This document shows, in pieces, positions 26,740 through 43,212 of a stretch of 64,000 bases of DNA. Every line of letters begins with the position of its first letter. The first letter of the stretch is position 1. The notes under the pieces were generated by a model. The model was not told the origin of the DNA. It was given only the letters and a program-made list of their open reading frames with translations, and ran no database searches. The DNA comes from Lachnospiraceae bacterium (lineage in GTDB: Bacteria > Bacillota > Clostridia > Lachnospirales > Lachnospiraceae), in assembly GCA_016290905.1 (NCBI GenBank), contig JAEEVO010000002.1, positions 23,940-87,939 on the forward strand. Reading direction: 5' to 3'. Position numbers and translations under genes: made by a program.

Positions 26740-29025
26740 ATGGACAAAGAATTGTATGACATTCTCGATTGGGGAGTAATGGAAGCACTGGAGTATTCCG
26801 AATGTGACGATCCTCACGCATGGCTTGGACCGCACAAGGTGAAGAACGGCGTTCTTTACAACGCATTTATGCCGACGGCAAAATCTGTTTCCGTAAAGTT
26901 TGCCGATAAGACGGCGGAAATGACTCCGACCGACGGAAAAGGCAATTTCTCGCTTTTTGTGAAGGATAAGACCATAAAGGAATACAAGCTTGCGGTTACT
27001 TACGATGACGGATCGAAGGCGGTTCTTTATGACGCATATTCCTATCCTGTAATGTTCAGTTCAGAGGATGAGGACAGGTTCATCCGTGGTATCCATTATG
27101 ATGTTTACGAAAAGTTCGGTTCCCATGTAATGACCGTAAACGGTGTAAAGGGAGTTTATTTTGCCGTATGGGCTCCGAACGCCGAGAGGGTTAGCGTTGT
27201 GGGAGAGTTCAACATGTGGGACGGCAGGCGTTATCCCATGAGAAAGCTCCGCGCTTCGGGAGTTTTTGAGCTGTTTATTCCCGGACTCGATGAGGGTCTG
27301 GTATATAAATACGAGATAAAGGCAAAGAACGGGCTTGCATTTTTAAAGACCGATCCTTACGGCAACAGGTTTGAGCTCAGGCCTGAAAATGCGACAATAG
27401 TAACAACTCTTGATTTTGACTGGTCGGATTCCGAGTGGATAGAGAAGAGAAAAGCACAGAACATAGATAAGATCCCCATGTCGATCTACGAGGTACATCT
27501 TGGTTCGTGGTTAAAGAAGGGCGAAGGAGATGACGATTTCTATAATTACAGGGAAATCGCCGTTAAGCTTGCAAAATATGTCAAGAAGATGGGATATACC
27601 CATCTTGAGCTGCTTCCCGTAATGGAGCATCCTTTTGACGGATCGTGGGGCTATCAGGTAACCGGTTACTATGCAGCAACCTCGCGTTACGGAACGCCTC
27701 AGGATTTCATGTATTTCATGAACTATATGCATAACGAGGGCATAGGCGTTATCCTTGACTGGGTACCCGCTCATTTCCCCAAGGACGCATTCGGACTTGC
27801 AAGGTTTGACGGATCGTGCCTGTATGAGCATAAGGATCCGAGACTCGGAGAGCATCCGGACTGGGGTACGCTGATATTTGACTTCGGTCGTCCCGAGGTA
27901 TCGAATTTCCTTATCGCAAACGCTCTTTTCTGGGTAAAGAAATATCATGCGGACGGCATAAGGATGGATGCCGTTGCATCAATGCTCTATCTTGATTACG
28001 GAAGAAGGAACGGAGAATGGGTAGCAAATAAGTACGGCAGCAACGAGAATCTCGAAGCTATAGAGCTGTTAAAGCATCTTAACTCCATCTTCCATAAGTG
28101 CAATGACGGAGCTGTGATCATTGCTGAGGAATCAACCGCATGGCCGAGGATCACAGGAAAAGTTGAAGACGAAGGTCTCGGCTTCGACTTAAAGTGGAAC
28201 ATGGGCTGGATGAACGATTTTACCGGCTACATGAAGCAGGATCCTCTCTTCAGGAAGGGCTGCCACGGCATGCTTACCTTCAGTATGATGTATGCATACA
28301 GTGAGAAGTTTGTCCTTGTTCTTTCACATGACGAGGTTGTTCACGGTAAGTGCTCGATGCTGAACAAGATGCCCGGCTACCGTGTAGATAAATTTGCAAA
28401 TCTCCGTGCGGCATACGGTTTCATGATGGGTCATCCCGGAAAGAAGCTGCTGTTCATGGGTCAGGAGTTTGCACAGGAGAGAGAATGGAGCGAGGAAAGA
28501 AGTCTTGACTGGGAACTTCTTGATGACGAGATGCATCAGAAGATGCAGAAATTCTGCGCAGATCTTAATAAGCTGTATGTTACAAGACCTGCATGCACCG
28601 AGCTTGACAACGATCCCAACGGTTTCAAGTGGATGAGCTGTCTTGACGCGGACCACAGCATTGTAAGCTTTATCAGATATGACGGAAAGAAGGAAGATAC
28701 GCTGCTCTTTGTATTTAACTTCACGCCGGTTGTATATAATTATTTTATCCAGGCAGTTCCTTATGCCGGAAATTGGAAGGAAATACTTAACAGTGATTCC
28801 GAAAAGTACGGCGGAAGCGGAAGGGTTAATTCGAGGATAAGAAAATCGAGGCCCATGCCGAAGGACGGACAGAACAATTCCATAGAAATGGTGCTTCCTC
28901 CACTTTCGGTCTGCGTTTTCGAGTTTAAGCCCGTTCCGGTAAAGCAGGAAACGGAAGAAAAGATAACCAAAGCGCCTGAGAAAAAGAAGGTAAAGGTAGT
29001 TCCGATCAAGCCTTCATCAAAATAA
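26740..29025 (+). CDS. glgB: 1,4-alpha-glucan branching enzyme
   Basis: CBM48 + GH13: YTHLELLPVMEHPFDGSWGYQVTGYYA..DGIRMDAVASMLYLDYGR..IIAEESTAWP..LVLSHDEVVHGK. Confidence 0.97.
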   Translation: MDKELYDILDWGVMEALEYSECDDPHAWLGPHKVKNGVLYNAFMPTAKSVSVKFADKTAEMTPTDGKGNFSLFVKDKTIKEYKLAVTYDDGSKAVLYDAYSYPVMFSSEDEDRFIRGIHYDVYEKFGSHVMTVNGVKGVYFAVWAPNAERVSVVGEFNMWDGRRYPMRKLRASGVFELFIPGLDEGLVYKYEIKAKNGLAFLKTDPYGNRFELRPENATIVTTLDFDWSDSEWIEKRKAQNIDKIPMSIYEVHLGSWLKKGEGDDDFYNYREIAVKLAKYVKKMGYTHLELLPVMEHPFDGSWGYQVTGYYAATSRYGTPQDFMYFMNYMHNEGIGVILDWVPAHFPKDAFGLARFDGSCLYEHKDPRLGEHPDWGTLIFDFGRPEVSNFLIANALFWVKKYHADGIRMDAVASMLYLDYGRRNGEWVANKYGSNENLEAIELLKHLNSIFHKCNDGAVIIAEESTAWPRITGKVEDEGLGFDLKWNMGWMNDFTGYMKQDPLFRKGCHGMLTFSMMYAYSEKFVLVLSHDEVVHGKCSMLNKMPGYRVDKFANLRAAYGFMMGHPGKKLLFMGQEFAQEREWSEERSLDWELLDDEMHQKMQKFCADLNKLYVTRPACTELDNDPNGFKWMSCLDADHSIVSFIRYDGKKEDTLLFVFNFTPVVYNYFIQAVPYAGNWKEILNSDSEKYGGSGRVNSRIRKSRPMPKDGQNNSIEMVLPPLSVCVFEFKPVPVKQETEEKITKAPEKKKVKVVPIKPSSK

Positions 29026-31554: not shown

Positions 31555-33189
31555 ATGATTCAGGCATGTAATGTAACCTTAAGGCTCGGCAAAAGAGCAC
31601 TTTTTGAGGATGTAAACATCAAATTCACGGAAGGTAACTGCTACGGACTCATAGGTGCGAACGGAGCCGGAAAATCCACCTTCCTTAAGGTGCTTACCGG
31701 AGAAATCGAACCCACCAGGGGCGAGGTTGTCATGACTCCGGGACAGCGTTTATCTTTCTTAAAGCAGGATCACTTCCAGTATGACGCATACTCGGTTCTT
31801 GATACCGTTATCATGGGAAACCAGCGTCTCTACGACATTATGAAAGAAAAGGAAGCCATCTATGCCAAGGAAGACTTTACCGATGAGGACGGAATAAAGG
31901 CAAGTGAGCTTGAAGGCGAATTTGCATCCATGAACGGCTGGGAGGCCGAGTCCGATGCGGCTCAGCTTTTAAACGGTCTTGGCGTTGATACCGAGTATCA
32001 TTACAAGCAGATGAGCGAGCTTAACGGACCTTTGAAGGTCAAGGTTCTGCTTGCACAGGCACTTTTCGGAAATCCCGATATCCTGCTTCTCGACGAGCCT
32101 ACCAACCACCTTGATCTGGAGGCTATCAGGTGGCTTGACGAGTTCCTTATCAACTTTGACAATACCGTTATAGTCGTATCTCATGACCGTTATTTCTTAA
32201 ATAAGGTCTGCACACAGATAGCGGATATAGATTATCAGAAGATACAGCTCTATGCCGGAAACTATGATTTCTGGTACGAGTCCAGCCAGCTTATGATCAA
32301 GCAGATGAAGGAAGCAAACAAGAAGAAGGAAGAGAAGATAAAAGAACTTCAGGAGTTCATACAGCGTTTCTCGGCAAATGCTTCAAAATCAAAGCAGGCA
32401 ACATCAAGAAAGAGGGCACTGGAGAAGATCGAGCTTGACGACATCAAGCCTTCAAGCAGGAAATATCCTTATATCGATTTCAGGCCTAACCGTGAAATAG
32501 GAAACGAAGTGCTTACCGTCACCAATCTCTGCAAGACGATTGACGGCGTTAAGGTACTTGACAATATCTCCTTCGTTATGGGGCATGATGACAAGATCGC
32601 ATTTGTAGGCGCAAATACACTTGCTGCAACCACTCTGTTTAAAATCCTTATGGAAGAGATGGAGCCGGATTCCGGAAGCTTCAAGTGGGGTGTTACCACA
32701 CAGCGTTCCTATTTCCCCAAGGACAATACTCAGGAGTTTAAGGGAAGCGAGACTATAGTTGATCACCTTATGCCTTTTTCACCCGTTGACGATCAGCAGT
32801 ATGTAAGAGGCTTTCTCGGCAGGATGCTCTTTGCCGGTGAGGACGGAGTAAAGAAGGTTAACGTGCTTTCAGGTGGTGAAAGAGTAAGAGTCATGCTCTC
32901 AAAGATGATGATCCTCGGTTCAAATGTCCTTATCATGGATGAGCCTACGAACCACCTTGACATGGAATCCATTACGGCTCTTAACAACGGACTTATAAAG
33001 TTCCCGGGAGTCTGCCTGTTTACGGCTCTCGATCATCAGTTCATTCAGACAATTGCAAACCGTATCATGGAGATCACTCCTGACGGAAAGCTTATCGATA
33101 AGATCTCTACCTATGACGATTATCTGGAGAATGACGAAATGGCAAGACGCCGCCAGGTATTGAGCGTTAATAACGAGGACGAAGACTGA
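31555..33189 (+). CDS. ABC-F family ATPase, YbiT-like, with degenerate NBD2
   Basis: YGLIGANGAGKSTFLKVLTGE..LLDEPTNHLDLEAIRWLDEFL..VVSHDRYFLNKVC; NBD2 VGANTLAATTLFKIL, LSGGERVRVMLSKMMILGSNVLIMDEPTNHLD. Confidence 0.93.
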   Translation: MIQACNVTLRLGKRALFEDVNIKFTEGNCYGLIGANGAGKSTFLKVLTGEIEPTRGEVVMTPGQRLSFLKQDHFQYDAYSVLDTVIMGNQRLYDIMKEKEAIYAKEDFTDEDGIKASELEGEFASMNGWEAESDAAQLLNGLGVDTEYHYKQMSELNGPLKVKVLLAQALFGNPDILLLDEPTNHLDLEAIRWLDEFLINFDNTVIVVSHDRYFLNKVCTQIADIDYQKIQLYAGNYDFWYESSQLMIKQMKEANKKKEEKIKELQEFIQRFSANASKSKQATSRKRALEKIELDDIKPSSRKYPYIDFRPNREIGNEVLTVTNLCKTIDGVKVLDNISFVMGHDDKIAFVGANTLAATTLFKILMEEMEPDSGSFKWGVTTQRSYFPKDNTQEFKGSETIVDHLMPFSPVDDQQYVRGFLGRMLFAGEDGVKKVNVLSGGERVRVMLSKMMILGSNVLIMDEPTNHLDMESITALNNGLIKFPGVCLFTALDHQFIQTIANRIMEITPDGKLIDKISTYDDYLENDEMARRRQVLSVNNEDED

Positions 33190-33201: not shown

Positions 33202-35136
33202 ATGCAGAACAGGATCATACCCGGTGTTGATCGGGAAAACGGCAGTTTAAGAATAGCTGTTCCCAATATGGGACATGAGTGGTGCAATATCCTTCTTAGG
33301 GAAAAAGGAGGGGAGTGGACCACTTATAAGCTTGCTCCGAACGCGCTTTTCCCTTCAATATTCACCGGAGAGATCGCTACGGATGAAACTAAGGAATATG
33401 AATATATATTTGAGTGTGACAAGGGGTATTTCATTGACGAGCGATCGAAACGTGTCGTAAGTCCCGGAGAGTACGGAAAGCTTGTAAGGGATTTCAAAGA
33501 AAAGGATTTAAAGAAGAGAAATATTTTTTCGGATACCCTGGGTAAGGTCTCAGCAGTCGAAAAAAGTGATTTTGACTGGAAGAACGACCGCAGGCCCTGC
33601 ATCCCCGTATCGGATATGATCGCCTACAAGCTTCATGTCAGAGGCTTTACAATACATGAGTCTTCAAATGTAAAGCATCCGGGAACCTTTAAGGGTATCT
33701 GTGAAAAGCTTAACTATATAAAGAGTCTCGGTATTACGACTCTGATCCTTCAGCCCTGTTATGAATTTAACGAGATGATGGATTATCATATGAATGTCGG
33801 AGCCGGGACGGCCGGTGATGTACAGCGTTCGAGAGTATTTGCGCTGCCTGTTGATACTGTACCGGATTCAAGGCTTAATTTCTGGGGGTACGGTGCTCAG
33901 GGAATGTATTTCGCACCCAAGTCCGGATATGCCTCAGAGCCCGAAAATGTCTGCACAGAGTTTAAGACAATGGTACGTCTCCTTCACAGTACGGGCATAG
34001 AAGTAATAATGGAAATGGATTACACGAACGGGCTGACGGAGAGCTTTATCCTGGACAACTTAAGATTCTGGGTAATGGAATACCATGTGGACGGTTTCAA
34101 GCTCGACGTGGACAGGGTTCCGGTAAAGCTTATCGCTTCCGATGCTTATCTTTGCAACATAAAGCTCATCGGCAGGGAGTTTAACGGGGACGATCTCGGA
34201 AGAAGCGATCTGAGGAACAGGATAATAGTATCAAACGACGGCTTCCAGGATACGATGAGACGTTTCTTAAAGGGCGATGAAGGACAGCTTCATGCCGTTT
34301 CGGAGATTATAAAGGATAACGGAAGACGTTTCGGAAGGCTTAATTATATTGTTGATCATAACGGATTTACGCTTAACGACGTATTCAGCTATGATGAGAG
34401 GCACAACGAGGCCAACGGCGAGCATAACCACGACGGGCGCGAGGCCAATTACAGCTGGAATTGCGGCATTGAGGGAAATACGAAGAAGCGCAAGGTTCTT
34501 GACCTAAGAAACCGGATGATAAAGAATGCCCTGACTCTGCTTTTCTTAAGCCAGGGTGCGCCGATGCTCTTTGCGGGAGATGAGTTCGGAAATACACATC
34601 AGGGAAACAACAACCCGTATTGCTGTGACAACGAACAGGGCTGGGTTGTCTGGACAAAATCAAAGAGAGCTTCAGAATTAAGGGAATTTACAAAGAGCCT
34701 TATAGCTTTAAGAAAAATGCATAAGGTATTCAGAAACCCAAAATTCCTGTCGGGAAACGATTTTTCATATACCGGGCTGCCGGATATATCCTTCCACGGG
34801 ACAAAGGCCTGGTATCCTGACTTCAGCTATTATGCAAGGACCTTCGGCGTGTTGCTTAACGGAGCTTATGCAGATGATTCGGACAGCTTCCTGCTTCTTG
34901 TGAATACTCACTGGGAGGCACATGAGTTCCTGCTTCCGACCATGACCGACGGTTCATGGGAATTTGTTTTCTCAACCCACGGCATGATAAAGAGCACTCT
35001 TAAGAGCTCGCGCGAACAGAAGGAGCTTATACCTCCGAGGACTATTTGTCTGTACGTTTATAAGGAAAGCAGGGACAAGAAGAAAGCTCCCGAGGAGATT
35101 GAAGAGAAGGCACATATAGCCGTGGAGAAGGAATAA
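33202..35136 (+). CDS. Isoamylase/glycogen-debranching-like GH13 protein, probably catalytically inactive
   Basis: CBM48-like N-terminus; SLGITTLILQPCYEFNE..YHVDGFKLDVDRV..HNGFTLNDVFSYDERHNEANGEHNHDG..LFLSQGAPMLFAGDEFGNTHQGNNNPYCCDNE. Confidence 0.85.
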   Translation: MQNRIIPGVDRENGSLRIAVPNMGHEWCNILLREKGGEWTTYKLAPNALFPSIFTGEIATDETKEYEYIFECDKGYFIDERSKRVVSPGEYGKLVRDFKEKDLKKRNIFSDTLGKVSAVEKSDFDWKNDRRPCIPVSDMIAYKLHVRGFTIHESSNVKHPGTFKGICEKLNYIKSLGITTLILQPCYEFNEMMDYHMNVGAGTAGDVQRSRVFALPVDTVPDSRLNFWGYGAQGMYFAPKSGYASEPENVCTEFKTMVRLLHSTGIEVIMEMDYTNGLTESFILDNLRFWVMEYHVDGFKLDVDRVPVKLIASDAYLCNIKLIGREFNGDDLGRSDLRNRIIVSNDGFQDTMRRFLKGDEGQLHAVSEIIKDNGRRFGRLNYIVDHNGFTLNDVFSYDERHNEANGEHNHDGREANYSWNCGIEGNTKKRKVLDLRNRMIKNALTLLFLSQGAPMLFAGDEFGNTHQGNNNPYCCDNEQGWVVWTKSKRASELREFTKSLIALRKMHKVFRNPKFLSGNDFSYTGLPDISFHGTKAWYPDFSYYARTFGVLLNGAYADDSDSFLLLVNTHWEAHEFLLPTMTDGSWEFVFSTHGMIKSTLKSSREQKELIPPRTICLYVYKESRDKKKAPEEIEEKAHIAVEKE

Positions 35137-35140
35137 GGAT

Positions 35141-35923
35141 ATGGCAGACTCTGTAAAGAAACCGGCAGAGTCCGGAAATGCTAAAAAAGGCGGCGGTATT
35201 TCCGGTTTGAGTTCGGGTGCGTTGAAGATTATAGCATGTGTCTGCATGCTTATAGACCATATAACCCTGTGCTTTATCCCCGAACCCGACCGTTTAAAGG
35301 TGCTGCTTGATACGGAAGAGATCATATGGTATATCGGCAGGGGGATAGGCCGCTCGGCACTGATCATATTCTGTTTCCTCCTTGTGGAGGGCTTTTTCCT
35401 TACGGGAGATTATAAGAAATATCTCATCAGGATGCTGGTTGCGGCGGTTGTTTCGGAAGCCGCATTCGATCTGATGTTTAAAAGGCTTAACTCGGAATCG
35501 TTCCTTACAACTCAGAATGTGCTGTTCTCATTTGCACTTGGCCTGATGATCATGTATGTCCTTGAGTTTTTAAAGGATGCGTACTTTTATAAATCGGTAG
35601 TCAAATACAGTATCTTTGCGGGTCTTACCTGCACCTTCGGCTTTGCCGCCGCGGCACTGCTAAGGCTTGATTATGGGATGCCGGGAATCGGGCTTATACT
35701 TGTTTTCTACTATTTCCGTTTCAGGGGATGGAGACTGGTGCTTGCCGTTGTTGTATGGTCGATCGTATGCATATTCATGAACCATCAGCTTGAATGGGCC
35801 GGACTGATAGCGCTGATACCGATCATGAAATTTTATAACGGGACTGAGGGTAAGCTTCCGAAATGGTTTTTCTATGTTTTTTATCCCGCGCACATGTTGG
35901 TGCTGGGAATTATGAGACCATAA
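35141..35923 (+). CDS. TraX family protein
   Basis: SSGALKIIACVCMLIDHITLCFIPE..YIGRGIGRSALIIFCFLLVEGFFLTGDYKKYLIRMLVAAVVSEAAFDLMF..HPAHMLVLG-like C-terminus (YPAHMLVLGIMRP). Confidence 0.88.
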   Translation: MADSVKKPAESGNAKKGGGISGLSSGALKIIACVCMLIDHITLCFIPEPDRLKVLLDTEEIIWYIGRGIGRSALIIFCFLLVEGFFLTGDYKKYLIRMLVAAVVSEAAFDLMFKRLNSESFLTTQNVLFSFALGLMIMYVLEFLKDAYFYKSVVKYSIFAGLTCTFGFAAAALLRLDYGMPGIGLILVFYYFRFRGWRLVLAVVVWSIVCIFMNHQLEWAGLIALIPIMKFYNGTEGKLPKWFFYVFYPAHMLVLGIMRP

Positions 35924-41079: not shown

Positions 41080-43212
41080 TCAGCACCCTATCGTACCCGA
41101 ATAAACTACATTCCCGTAATAATCATATGCATAAATATACGCGGTTAAGGGGCTGCCCGAAATGGTGAGCGTCTGGTTTATACCGCTGCCGCTGTTATTG
41201 TAATTATACTGCGATCCGTTTGAAACACTGATAACCACGTTCTTTATGCCGGAACCGGTCTTTATGTTTATCTTCATCGTCCCCACGTTATTGACAGTGC
41301 TTGAAGAAGAACTGATGTTACAGGATGTATCTCCGTAATATACGGGCTGGGTGATCACCGGAGTACTTGTGGGATACGAGGTGAGCACAGGTGTTGTGGT
41401 CGGATAATACGGAAACCATGTGATAACCGGTGAAGGCGTCGGCGTTGTGGTCACAACAGGCGGCGTAGGCTTCGGAGTAGAAGTAGGTGTTGCTATCGGA
41501 GTACTCGTGGGTCTTACGGGACTGTTGGTAACAGTCGGCGTGGGATTAGCCGGAGTAGGACTCGGAGACGTCGTAGGAGATACCGGCGTTTCCGTAACGA
41601 TGGGAACCGGAGTGGGTTCCGTAGGAGCAGGAACGCTTATATCAAGATTTCCGACATACGGAACACCGTATCCGTAGTATACGTCAAAGCCGGAAGATCC
41701 GAGATCATAGCATGAAGATTTCAGGATGCTTTCGACAGTAGAACAGGAGGCCGAGGAATTGATAAGCTTTATCATAGCCGCGAGTCCGCTTACATGGGGC
41801 GTTGCCATTGAGGTTCCTGACCAGTATTCATAACCGCCGCCGGGTATAGAACTGCGGATGTTTACTCCCGGTGCAGCAACGTCCACGCTGTAACCGTAGT
41901 TGGAGAAGGATGCCCTGTTGTAATCGGAATCTATGGCCGAAACAACGATCGCATCATAGTTATGTGCGGGACATTCGCCTGAAGTATCGGAGTTATCGTT
42001 TCCGGCTGCTACCACAACCGTGGCGCCTAAGGAAATAGCCTTGGATATTGCGGTATCCTCATAGTGGTTTGTACCGTAGCATGCTCCGCCAAGACTTAAG
42101 TTTATGACATCCGCGCCGGATTCAGCCGCATAGACTATACCGTTTGCTACTGCAATGGAAGAGCCGTAACCCTGACCGGAAAGAACCTTTACCGGCAGGA
42201 GCGAAACATTAAGACCTGAAACGGTATTCACAACGATACCCGCAACATGGGTTCCGTGCCCGTTATCATCGTATGCGTCATTGTCATTGTTTACAAAATC
42301 ATAGCCCTTTGAAGAAACGCTGTCTCTTAAGAAGCTGTGGGTATAATCTATACCGGTATCAACTATTGCTACAGTGACGTTCCCTGCAATGCCGGCGTCA
42401 TTGATACGTTCTGCGAGGGCATCAGCTCCGAGCATGCTCACGTTCCAGTCGGTAGTACGATAATCATAATAGGTATCATAGCCGTTGTTTGCGTTGATAA
42501 CCGACTGAGGTTCGATCATGGAGATCAGCCTGTCAGGCTCGGCGCTTGAAATCTTCTTGGCTTTGCTGAGCTTCTCGTGCGCTGCTTTTGTATCCTTTTC
42601 GCTTCCGAACTGCAGGATATAAGTATTGCCGTGTTTTACGTAATCAACGGCACCATAAGATTTCGGGGAAAAAGATTTACCCTTCTTGGTCTCGACAATG
42701 AGACGTTTGAGCTGGTAAGGACTGGTAACTGTAACGCCGTTCTCGCCCTCCTCTATCTCAAAACAGGAGTTATCATCAAATTCGTCTGCGTTTATCACAT
42801 AGACGCCGTTTTTCTTACGGGGTTTATTCTTGAAAACATAATCCTCACCGTCAAGGGTGGAGGAGGTTTTGTTTATCCTGCATTCCCACGTAAATTCATC
42901 GGAGGATATGGTAAATTTCTTGCCGCTCCTTTTGTACTCGATACCTGTATCCTCACAGAAGGCGCTTACCGGCAGATACCATTCATCATCGATAAGGCAT
43001 GCACCGTTTTTGTCCGAGTAGAAGAGCTCGTCGTAATAGTCGTCCTCCCAATAGTCGGAAATAAGTCTTGATGTCTCTACGAAGAAATCATAATCATCCT
43101 CGTAGTCGTCCAGCCTGTCCGGTACATAAATATCAACCGCTCCTGCAGGGATGGTGCAGGATGAAAACAGGAATAACAATGCTGATAAAAATCCTATAAT
43201 CCGTTTTTTCAT
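41080..43212 (-). CDS. Secreted S8 subtilisin-like serine protease with Pro/Thr-rich linker
   Basis: Signal peptide; VTVAIVDTGIDYTHS; DDNGHGTHVAGIV; YWSGTSMATPHVSGLAAMI; TPVPIVTETPVSPTTSPSPTP.. linker. Confidence 0.93.
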   Translation of the reverse strand: MKKRIIGFLSALLFLFSSCTIPAGAVDIYVPDRLDDYEDDYDFFVETSRLISDYWEDDYYDELFYSDKNGACLIDDEWYLPVSAFCEDTGIEYKRSGKKFTISSDEFTWECRINKTSSTLDGEDYVFKNKPRKKNGVYVINADEFDDNSCFEIEEGENGVTVTSPYQLKRLIVETKKGKSFSPKSYGAVDYVKHGNTYILQFGSEKDTKAAHEKLSKAKKISSAEPDRLISMIEPQSVINANNGYDTYYDYRTTDWNVSMLGADALAERINDAGIAGNVTVAIVDTGIDYTHSFLRDSVSSKGYDFVNNDNDAYDDNGHGTHVAGIVVNTVSGLNVSLLPVKVLSGQGYGSSIAVANGIVYAAESGADVINLSLGGACYGTNHYEDTAISKAISLGATVVVAAGNDNSDTSGECPAHNYDAIVVSAIDSDYNRASFSNYGYSVDVAAPGVNIRSSIPGGGYEYWSGTSMATPHVSGLAAMIKLINSSASCSTVESILKSSCYDLGSSGFDVYYGYGVPYVGNLDISVPAPTEPTPVPIVTETPVSPTTSPSPTPANPTPTVTNSPVRPTSTPIATPTSTPKPTPPVVTTTPTPSPVITWFPYYPTTTPVLTSYPTSTPVITQPVYYGDTSCNISSSSSTVNNVGTMKINIKTGSGIKNVVISVSNGSQYNYNNSGSGINQTLTISGSPLTAYIYAYDYYGNVVYSGTIGC

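Follow-up and report, generated by a model that had tools for sequence, protein, structure and literature searches.

The gene at positions 33202..35136 (+) of the window, that is, of the whole 64,000-nucleotide stretch of Lachnospiraceae DNA analyzed here, probably encodes a conserved, non-catalytic, α-glucan-binding homologue of the isoamylase/GlgX branch of GH13. The parts of this reading differ in strength. The protein is almost certainly non-catalytic, with the GH13 mechanism out of its reach. Judged by the residues that it keeps, it quite probably binds branched α-glucan, and a role in glycogen is somewhat favored. The open reading frame encodes 644 aa from an ATG start, contains no internal stops, and shows no obvious signal peptide by eye.

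The isoamylase-like GH13 core fold proposed in the original prediction was borne out by structural superposition. The AlphaFold2 model of the window protein was confident (pLDDT 87.3, pTM 0.89), and Foldseek matched it to ISA1 and GlgX with E values down to 4e-51 and TM scores of 0.7-0.8. Full-length matches were obtained with rice ISA1, Streptomyces GlgX and TreX. Rice ISA1 was the best match (TM 0.78-0.79), the GlgX of Streptomyces venezuelae (7u3d, 7u3a) formed the second-best structural group, and the inactive rice ISA2 scored lower (TM 0.72). By alignment, the closest solved structures were likewise plant isoamylase 1 and bacterial GlgX. Like the solved isoamylases, the model has an N-terminal beta-sandwich, a (beta/alpha)8 barrel and a C-terminal beta domain, and the isoamylase signature motifs NEANGExNxDG, SWNCGxEG and GNNNxYC are present, as in isoamylase-type (GH13_11-like) proteins. 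The N-terminal beta-sandwich (33223..33459 (+), residues 8-86, from the secondary structure and pLDDT of the model) occupies the CBM48 position. The earlier description of this part as CBM48-like thus holds for the confident sandwich in the model but not for the profile, as Pfam CBM_48 did not match the window protein and matched only 11 of 30 close relatives. The window protein falls outside the active GlgX family: it scored 321.6 bits on the NCBIfam model TIGR02100 (GlgX), below the curated cut-off of 640.9, and the catalytic triad is missing. Other members of its clade scored about 150-270 bits per segment on this model, and intact copies scored 606-696 bits.

We compared the protein with its homologues. 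The catalytic motifs were absent from all of the 29 nearest homologues in the family. A scan of about 85,000 species genomes supplied 80 further loci, and the enlarged homologue set split in two: all motifs are intact in 34 sequences and broken in 76, the window protein among them. We refer to the latter as the dead clade. In a quick tree computed with the catalytic columns omitted, which has long branches and includes neither an outgroup nor plant sequences, a single branch (SH-aLRT 100) separated the dead set from the intact set. The losses are common to the whole clade, that is, to the window protein and 75 relatives. The named loci of the dead clade belong to Lachnospiraceae, except for a few that are labelled Clostridia only or carry older names. 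In addition, the dead gene is under purifying selection, with a dN of 0.031, a dS of 0.507 and a dN/dS of 0.06 between two congeneric species. In three genomes that have both genes, the dead copy has changed more quickly than intact GlgX (dN 0.22 vs. 0.08, at a dS of about 1.8-2.0).

All four catalytic regions of the window protein are altered. Region I reads MEMDYTN (residues 270-276; 34009..34029 (+)) in place of LDVVFNH, and in the dead clade its His is found in 0/76 and its Asn in 1/76 members. In region III, KLIGREFN (residues 321-328; 34162..34185 (+)), Arg325 replaces the acid/base Glu, and in region IV, HNGFT (residues 386-390; 34357..34371 (+)), Asn387 replaces the stabilizing Asp. 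These three motifs had been read correctly from the sequence at the outset. Region II, DGFKLD (residues 297-302; 34090..34107 (+)), carries Lys300 in place of an invariant Arg. The original prediction that region II keeps its Asp is right for the window protein, in which the nucleophile Asp302 is present; it does not extend to the family, since only three of the 76 members have this residue. Asp302 is a relic and not a conserved family feature.

The active site has also lost its loops. The shortened segment between regions I and II that had been noticed earlier is real: alignment with the intact homologues places the deletion of the domain-B loop at residues 277-280 (34030..34041 (+)), where the dead clade has 3-4 residues between positions 276 and 281 and the intact homologues have 48-49. 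About 44 residues are gone from every member of the dead clade. A second loop, after region II, which the original prediction had missed, is reduced to 2-3 residues from 17 in the intact homologues, with about 14 residues lost in all members. The Asp-Glu-Asp triad is complete in none of the 76 members; two of its three residues are found in 2/76 and one at most in 74/76. The triad is present in all 34 intact homologues, except that in one the third position is a gap. When the −1 site of S. venezuelae GlgX was mapped on the clade, His271 was retained in 0/76, Asp342 in 3/76, Glu378 in 13/76 and Asp450 in 10/76 members. Taken with the purifying selection and a barrel that has gained no new conserved acid (see below), the missing triad and the deleted catalytic loops strongly support the status of a pseudoenzyme.

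The dead and intact sets share 78 conserved positions. Among the retained residues are the −1 subsite aromatics W228 and Y230 (GlgX W222 and Y224; 33883..33891 (+)), found in 75/76 and 65/76 members of the dead clade, respectively. Further glucan contacts were mapped from the complexes of S. venezuelae GlgX (PMC9530166) through alignments of the window protein with solved structures. The retained motif HNEANGEHNHDGREANYSWNCGIEG (residues 401-425; 34402..34476 (+)) contains N402, E407 and W419, and its first part, HNEANGEHNHDG (residues 401-412), is intact as originally described. The motif GNNNPY (residues 468-473; 34603..34620 (+)) contains N469, N471 and Y473. E407 corresponds to GlgX Glu470 (E470; 76/76), N471 to GlgX N534 (76/76) and Y473 to GlgX Y536 (75/76). 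All the outer-sugar contacts of GlgX that could be mapped are thus retained; the region around a fourth contact, Arg212, could not be aligned. Every member of the dead clade has E407 but only 20 of the 34 intact homologues do, so the residue is under tighter constraint after the loss of catalysis and cannot count as a strict contact of GlgX.

Mutation of the border-lobe residues R504, N561, W578 and N628 of maize ISA1 abolishes debranching; W578 contacts glucan in the secondary site 2, SBS2 (PMC12510319). The maize positions were set from the spacing of motifs in the alignment with rice ISA1 rather than from the maize sequence. On this basis, these residues correspond to R353 (34258..34260 (+); 74/76), N402 (76/76), W419 (70/76) and N469 (76/76), respectively. 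The N628K mutant of maize accumulates at the wild-type level (PMC12510319), so this residue is dispensable for protein stability in maize. The CBM48 of plant isoamylases reportedly has no glucan site (PMC12510319). The kept glucan and lobe columns (5/5) differed from the −1 site columns (0/9) with a Fisher p of 0.0005, or of 0.005 if the −1 site is taken to include W228 and Y230, which are retained; the columns were picked from the papers and not from the conservation table, and they are not independent of each other. The dead clade keeps the surface that grips glucan in the relatives. This lends indirect support to the original suggestion that the protein binds glycogen or has a part in regulation.

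From these results we propose the following explanation. An ancestor of the family would have lost its active site once: the triad went, together with the domain-B loop and the His, Asn and Arg of the −1 subsite. What survived this loss would be the fold, the residues in contact with the outer sugars and the surface of the border lobe. Most likely, the protein is cytoplasmic and binds α-glucan, probably glycogen. It may hold or shield branched chains, or it may dock another glycogen enzyme onto them. The outcome would be that the structure or turnover of glycogen is shaped without cutting, as by ISA2 in plants. ISA complexes have been proposed to mask, dock or organize chains independently of catalysis (PMC12510319), and we infer that the bacterial protein may act likewise and through a partner. 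Against this explanation, the conserved residues may instead be required for folding, the gene neighbors are housekeeping genes, and the CBM48 is weak.

We found the dead copy in about 178 of 250 Lachnospiraceae genomes (150 sure and 28 likely, the latter counted without residue-by-residue inspection). In a class-wide sample at E ≤ 1e-70, a match was present in 8/10 genomes of the family and in 0/281 others. Intact GlgX accompanied the dead copy in 56 of the 178 carriers and was missing from the other 122 or so. Since almost every genome of the family has GlgA (242/250), its co-occurrence with the dead gene cannot test the link to glycogen. In the window's genome, which is 81% complete, we detected GlgA, GlgB and glycogen phosphorylase and did not detect intact GlgX, type I pullulanase or GDE_C. 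We then selected 30 carriers for the absence of intact GlgX; the completeness of 29 of these genomes is 90% or more. GlgA and glycogen phosphorylase were present in all 30. Type I pullulanase was absent from 23 of them, and strong GDE_C matches occurred in only three, all of which also had pullulanase. No recognized debranching enzyme (intact GlgX, type I pullulanase or strong GDE_C) was therefore found in 23/30 carriers. This gap concerns recognized enzymes only, and other GH13 enzymes may debranch. The genomes that show it are near-complete (for example, G012, G059, G094, G096, G102, G134, G172, G177 and G193). Weak GDE_C matches (23-26 bits) also turned up repeatedly, in several genomes, in ORFs of about 800 aa (G039, G054, G099, G024 and G127). 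The window's genome also encodes a 710-aa GH13 protein (L032:1099-3228 (−), on contig C27 of G000), which is nearest to the models of maltodextrin glucosidase and cyclomaltodextrinase and far under their cut-offs. It is a candidate for an unrecognized debrancher or for a partner.

Given that 23 of the 30 GlgX-less carriers have GlgA and phosphorylase and no pullulanase or strong GDE_C, some other protein must remove the branches. The dead protein could be a non-catalytic subunit that activates or positions another catalytic GH13, other than GlgX; in the window's genome, this enzyme may be the L032 protein. Plant ISA2 acts as such a partner, and maize ISA1 physically contacts a pullulanase-type GH13 (PMC12510319, PMC12516185). 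This possibility is nevertheless rather unlikely, as intact GlgX is missing from about 122/178 carriers and no fixed GH13 neighbor gene was seen across the relatives. An obligate pairing with intact GlgX, in the style of ISA1/ISA2, is unlikely and is rejected as a general rule, given that most carriers are without this enzyme. We also considered a bolder form of this idea, in which the dead isoamylase would be an essential non-catalytic part of an unrecognized debranching or glycogen-shaping machine in many GlgX-less Lachnospiraceae, a bacterial counterpart of ISA1/ISA2 that evolved independently and has a non-isoamylase catalytic partner. It is speculative, and we hold it to be improbable.

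The neighborhood of the gene was examined in the window and across the relatives. An ABC-F type ATP-binding protein (31555..33189 (+)) ends 12 nt upstream of the dead gene and a TraX-family membrane protein (35141..35923 (+)) starts 4 nt downstream; these short distances make co-transcription with the dead gene likely. TraX is directly downstream in nine relatives. The recurrent neighbors across the relatives (DUF5662, TraX, ABC-F, gltX, a UvrD-type helicase and DUF1292) are housekeeping genes. The glycogen branching enzyme GlgB (26740..29025 (+); NCBIfam GlgB, 931 bits) lies about 4 kb upstream, not adjacent, and it does so only in the window and not in the relatives. No glycogen genes recurred as neighbors across the relatives, and the context is uninformative for glycogen. 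In 22/46 relatives, the dead gene is followed on its own strand by DUF5662 (PF18907, about 185 aa), immediately in 16 (for example, at L038, L041 and L080) and one gene further on in six. Elsewhere in the window, a subtilase (S8; 41080-43212 (−)) has a long Pro/Thr-rich repeat stretch ahead of its C-terminal end.

This housekeeping neighborhood is what would be seen if the clade had been co-opted as a scaffold or regulator unrelated to glucan, with the isoamylase motifs kept only for folding. The faster sequence change relative to intact GlgX fits such a role, and so do the many invariant retained residues that are Gly, Asn or Asp, which are typical of structural turns. However, solved complexes show some of the kept residues as contacts (GlgX N534 and Y536, maize W578), and the wild-type level of maize N628K indicates a kept residue on which stability does not depend in maize (PMC12510319). 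We consider a role unrelated to glucan unlikely, and favor the glucan-binding protein.

A third possibility is that the protein is still an enzyme on α-glucan with a relocated or different active site, built on a new acid pair. In its favor, the protein keeps its fold and some of the cleft, the window copy has D302, and 23/30 GlgX-less carriers are without a recognized debrancher. We compared the conserved positions of the 76 dead and 34 intact sequences. Only four positions are newly conserved in the dead clade, Y382, Q451, D520 and D528; both acids are C-terminal, and no new conserved acid was found in the barrel. The positions that once were catalytic are now free to vary, with neither Glu nor Asp conserved at 302, 325 or 387, and the −1 site has lost the loop that would close over it. 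An alternative Glu/Asp triad, which the original prediction had named as evidence against a pseudoenzyme, was thus looked for in the conservation of the barrel and did not appear. A new catalytic triad is rejected on this ground, and a relocated active site is very unlikely. Finally, that the gene is merely a recently degraded GlgX pseudogene confined to one genome can be dismissed, as its degraded motifs are shared by 75 relatives on the same side of one branch, with full-length ORFs, a dN/dS of 0.06, an intact frame and a confident fold.

Among known systems, the non-catalytic glucan-binding protein that we favor most resembles plant ISA2, and an independent bacterial parallel of ISA2 appears to be the best explanation of the dead clade. 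In plants and green algae, the catalytic residues of ISA2, including the nucleophile, are changed throughout the lineage, the protein evolves faster, and the glucan surface is kept (PMC12510319). The dead clade has likewise lost its catalytic residues, is conserved in its lineage and evolves faster than its catalytic relatives. The two differ in several respects. ISA2 carries an extra N-terminal beta-sandwich, forms a pair with ISA1, and has kept SBS1 but not the sequence of SBS2. In contrast, the dead clade is a separate lineage confined to one bacterial family (in a comparison with no plant sequences in the tree), has lost the domain-B loop, has kept the border-lobe residues and the SBS2 Trp, and usually lives without intact GlgX. 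The window protein begins at the first sandwich (residue 8), which leaves no space for the extra domain, and ISA2 is a weaker structural match to it than ISA1. With the active GlgX/TreX/ISA1 enzymes (TIGR02100), the dead clade shares the fold, the domain order, the 78 conserved positions and the outer glucan contacts, and differs by lacking the triad, the −1 subsite and two loops. S. venezuelae GlgX differs further in being an active enzyme that is allosterically regulated by c-di-GMP. Dead enzymes of starch metabolism with regulatory roles have a precedent in plants, where BAM7 and BAM8 are named inactive transcription factors and BAM4 is cited as noncatalytic (PMC12892837). These are GH14 proteins of another organism, and the likeness is an analogy only.

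We found no description of the dead bacterial clade in the open-access literature; subscription papers and CAZy were outside the scope of this search. In a Roseburia/E. rectale survey, conserved GH13 proteins and the KEGG class 'glycogen-debranching enzyme' appear, apparently with the activity unremarked (PMC5320581). The gene is carried by most genomes of a family whose members are abundant in the gut and rumen. Homology-based annotation would label the protein GlgX, isoamylase or α-amylase-family hydrolase, so that genome-based glycogen pathways would ascribe to these bacteria a debranching activity that the protein cannot have. The finding also exposes a gap, as many glycogen-making Lachnospiraceae are without a recognized debranching enzyme. 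If the protein binds glycogen, it would be an independently evolved parallel of ISA2, and these bacteria would provide a non-plant system in which to ask what a non-catalytic isoamylase does.
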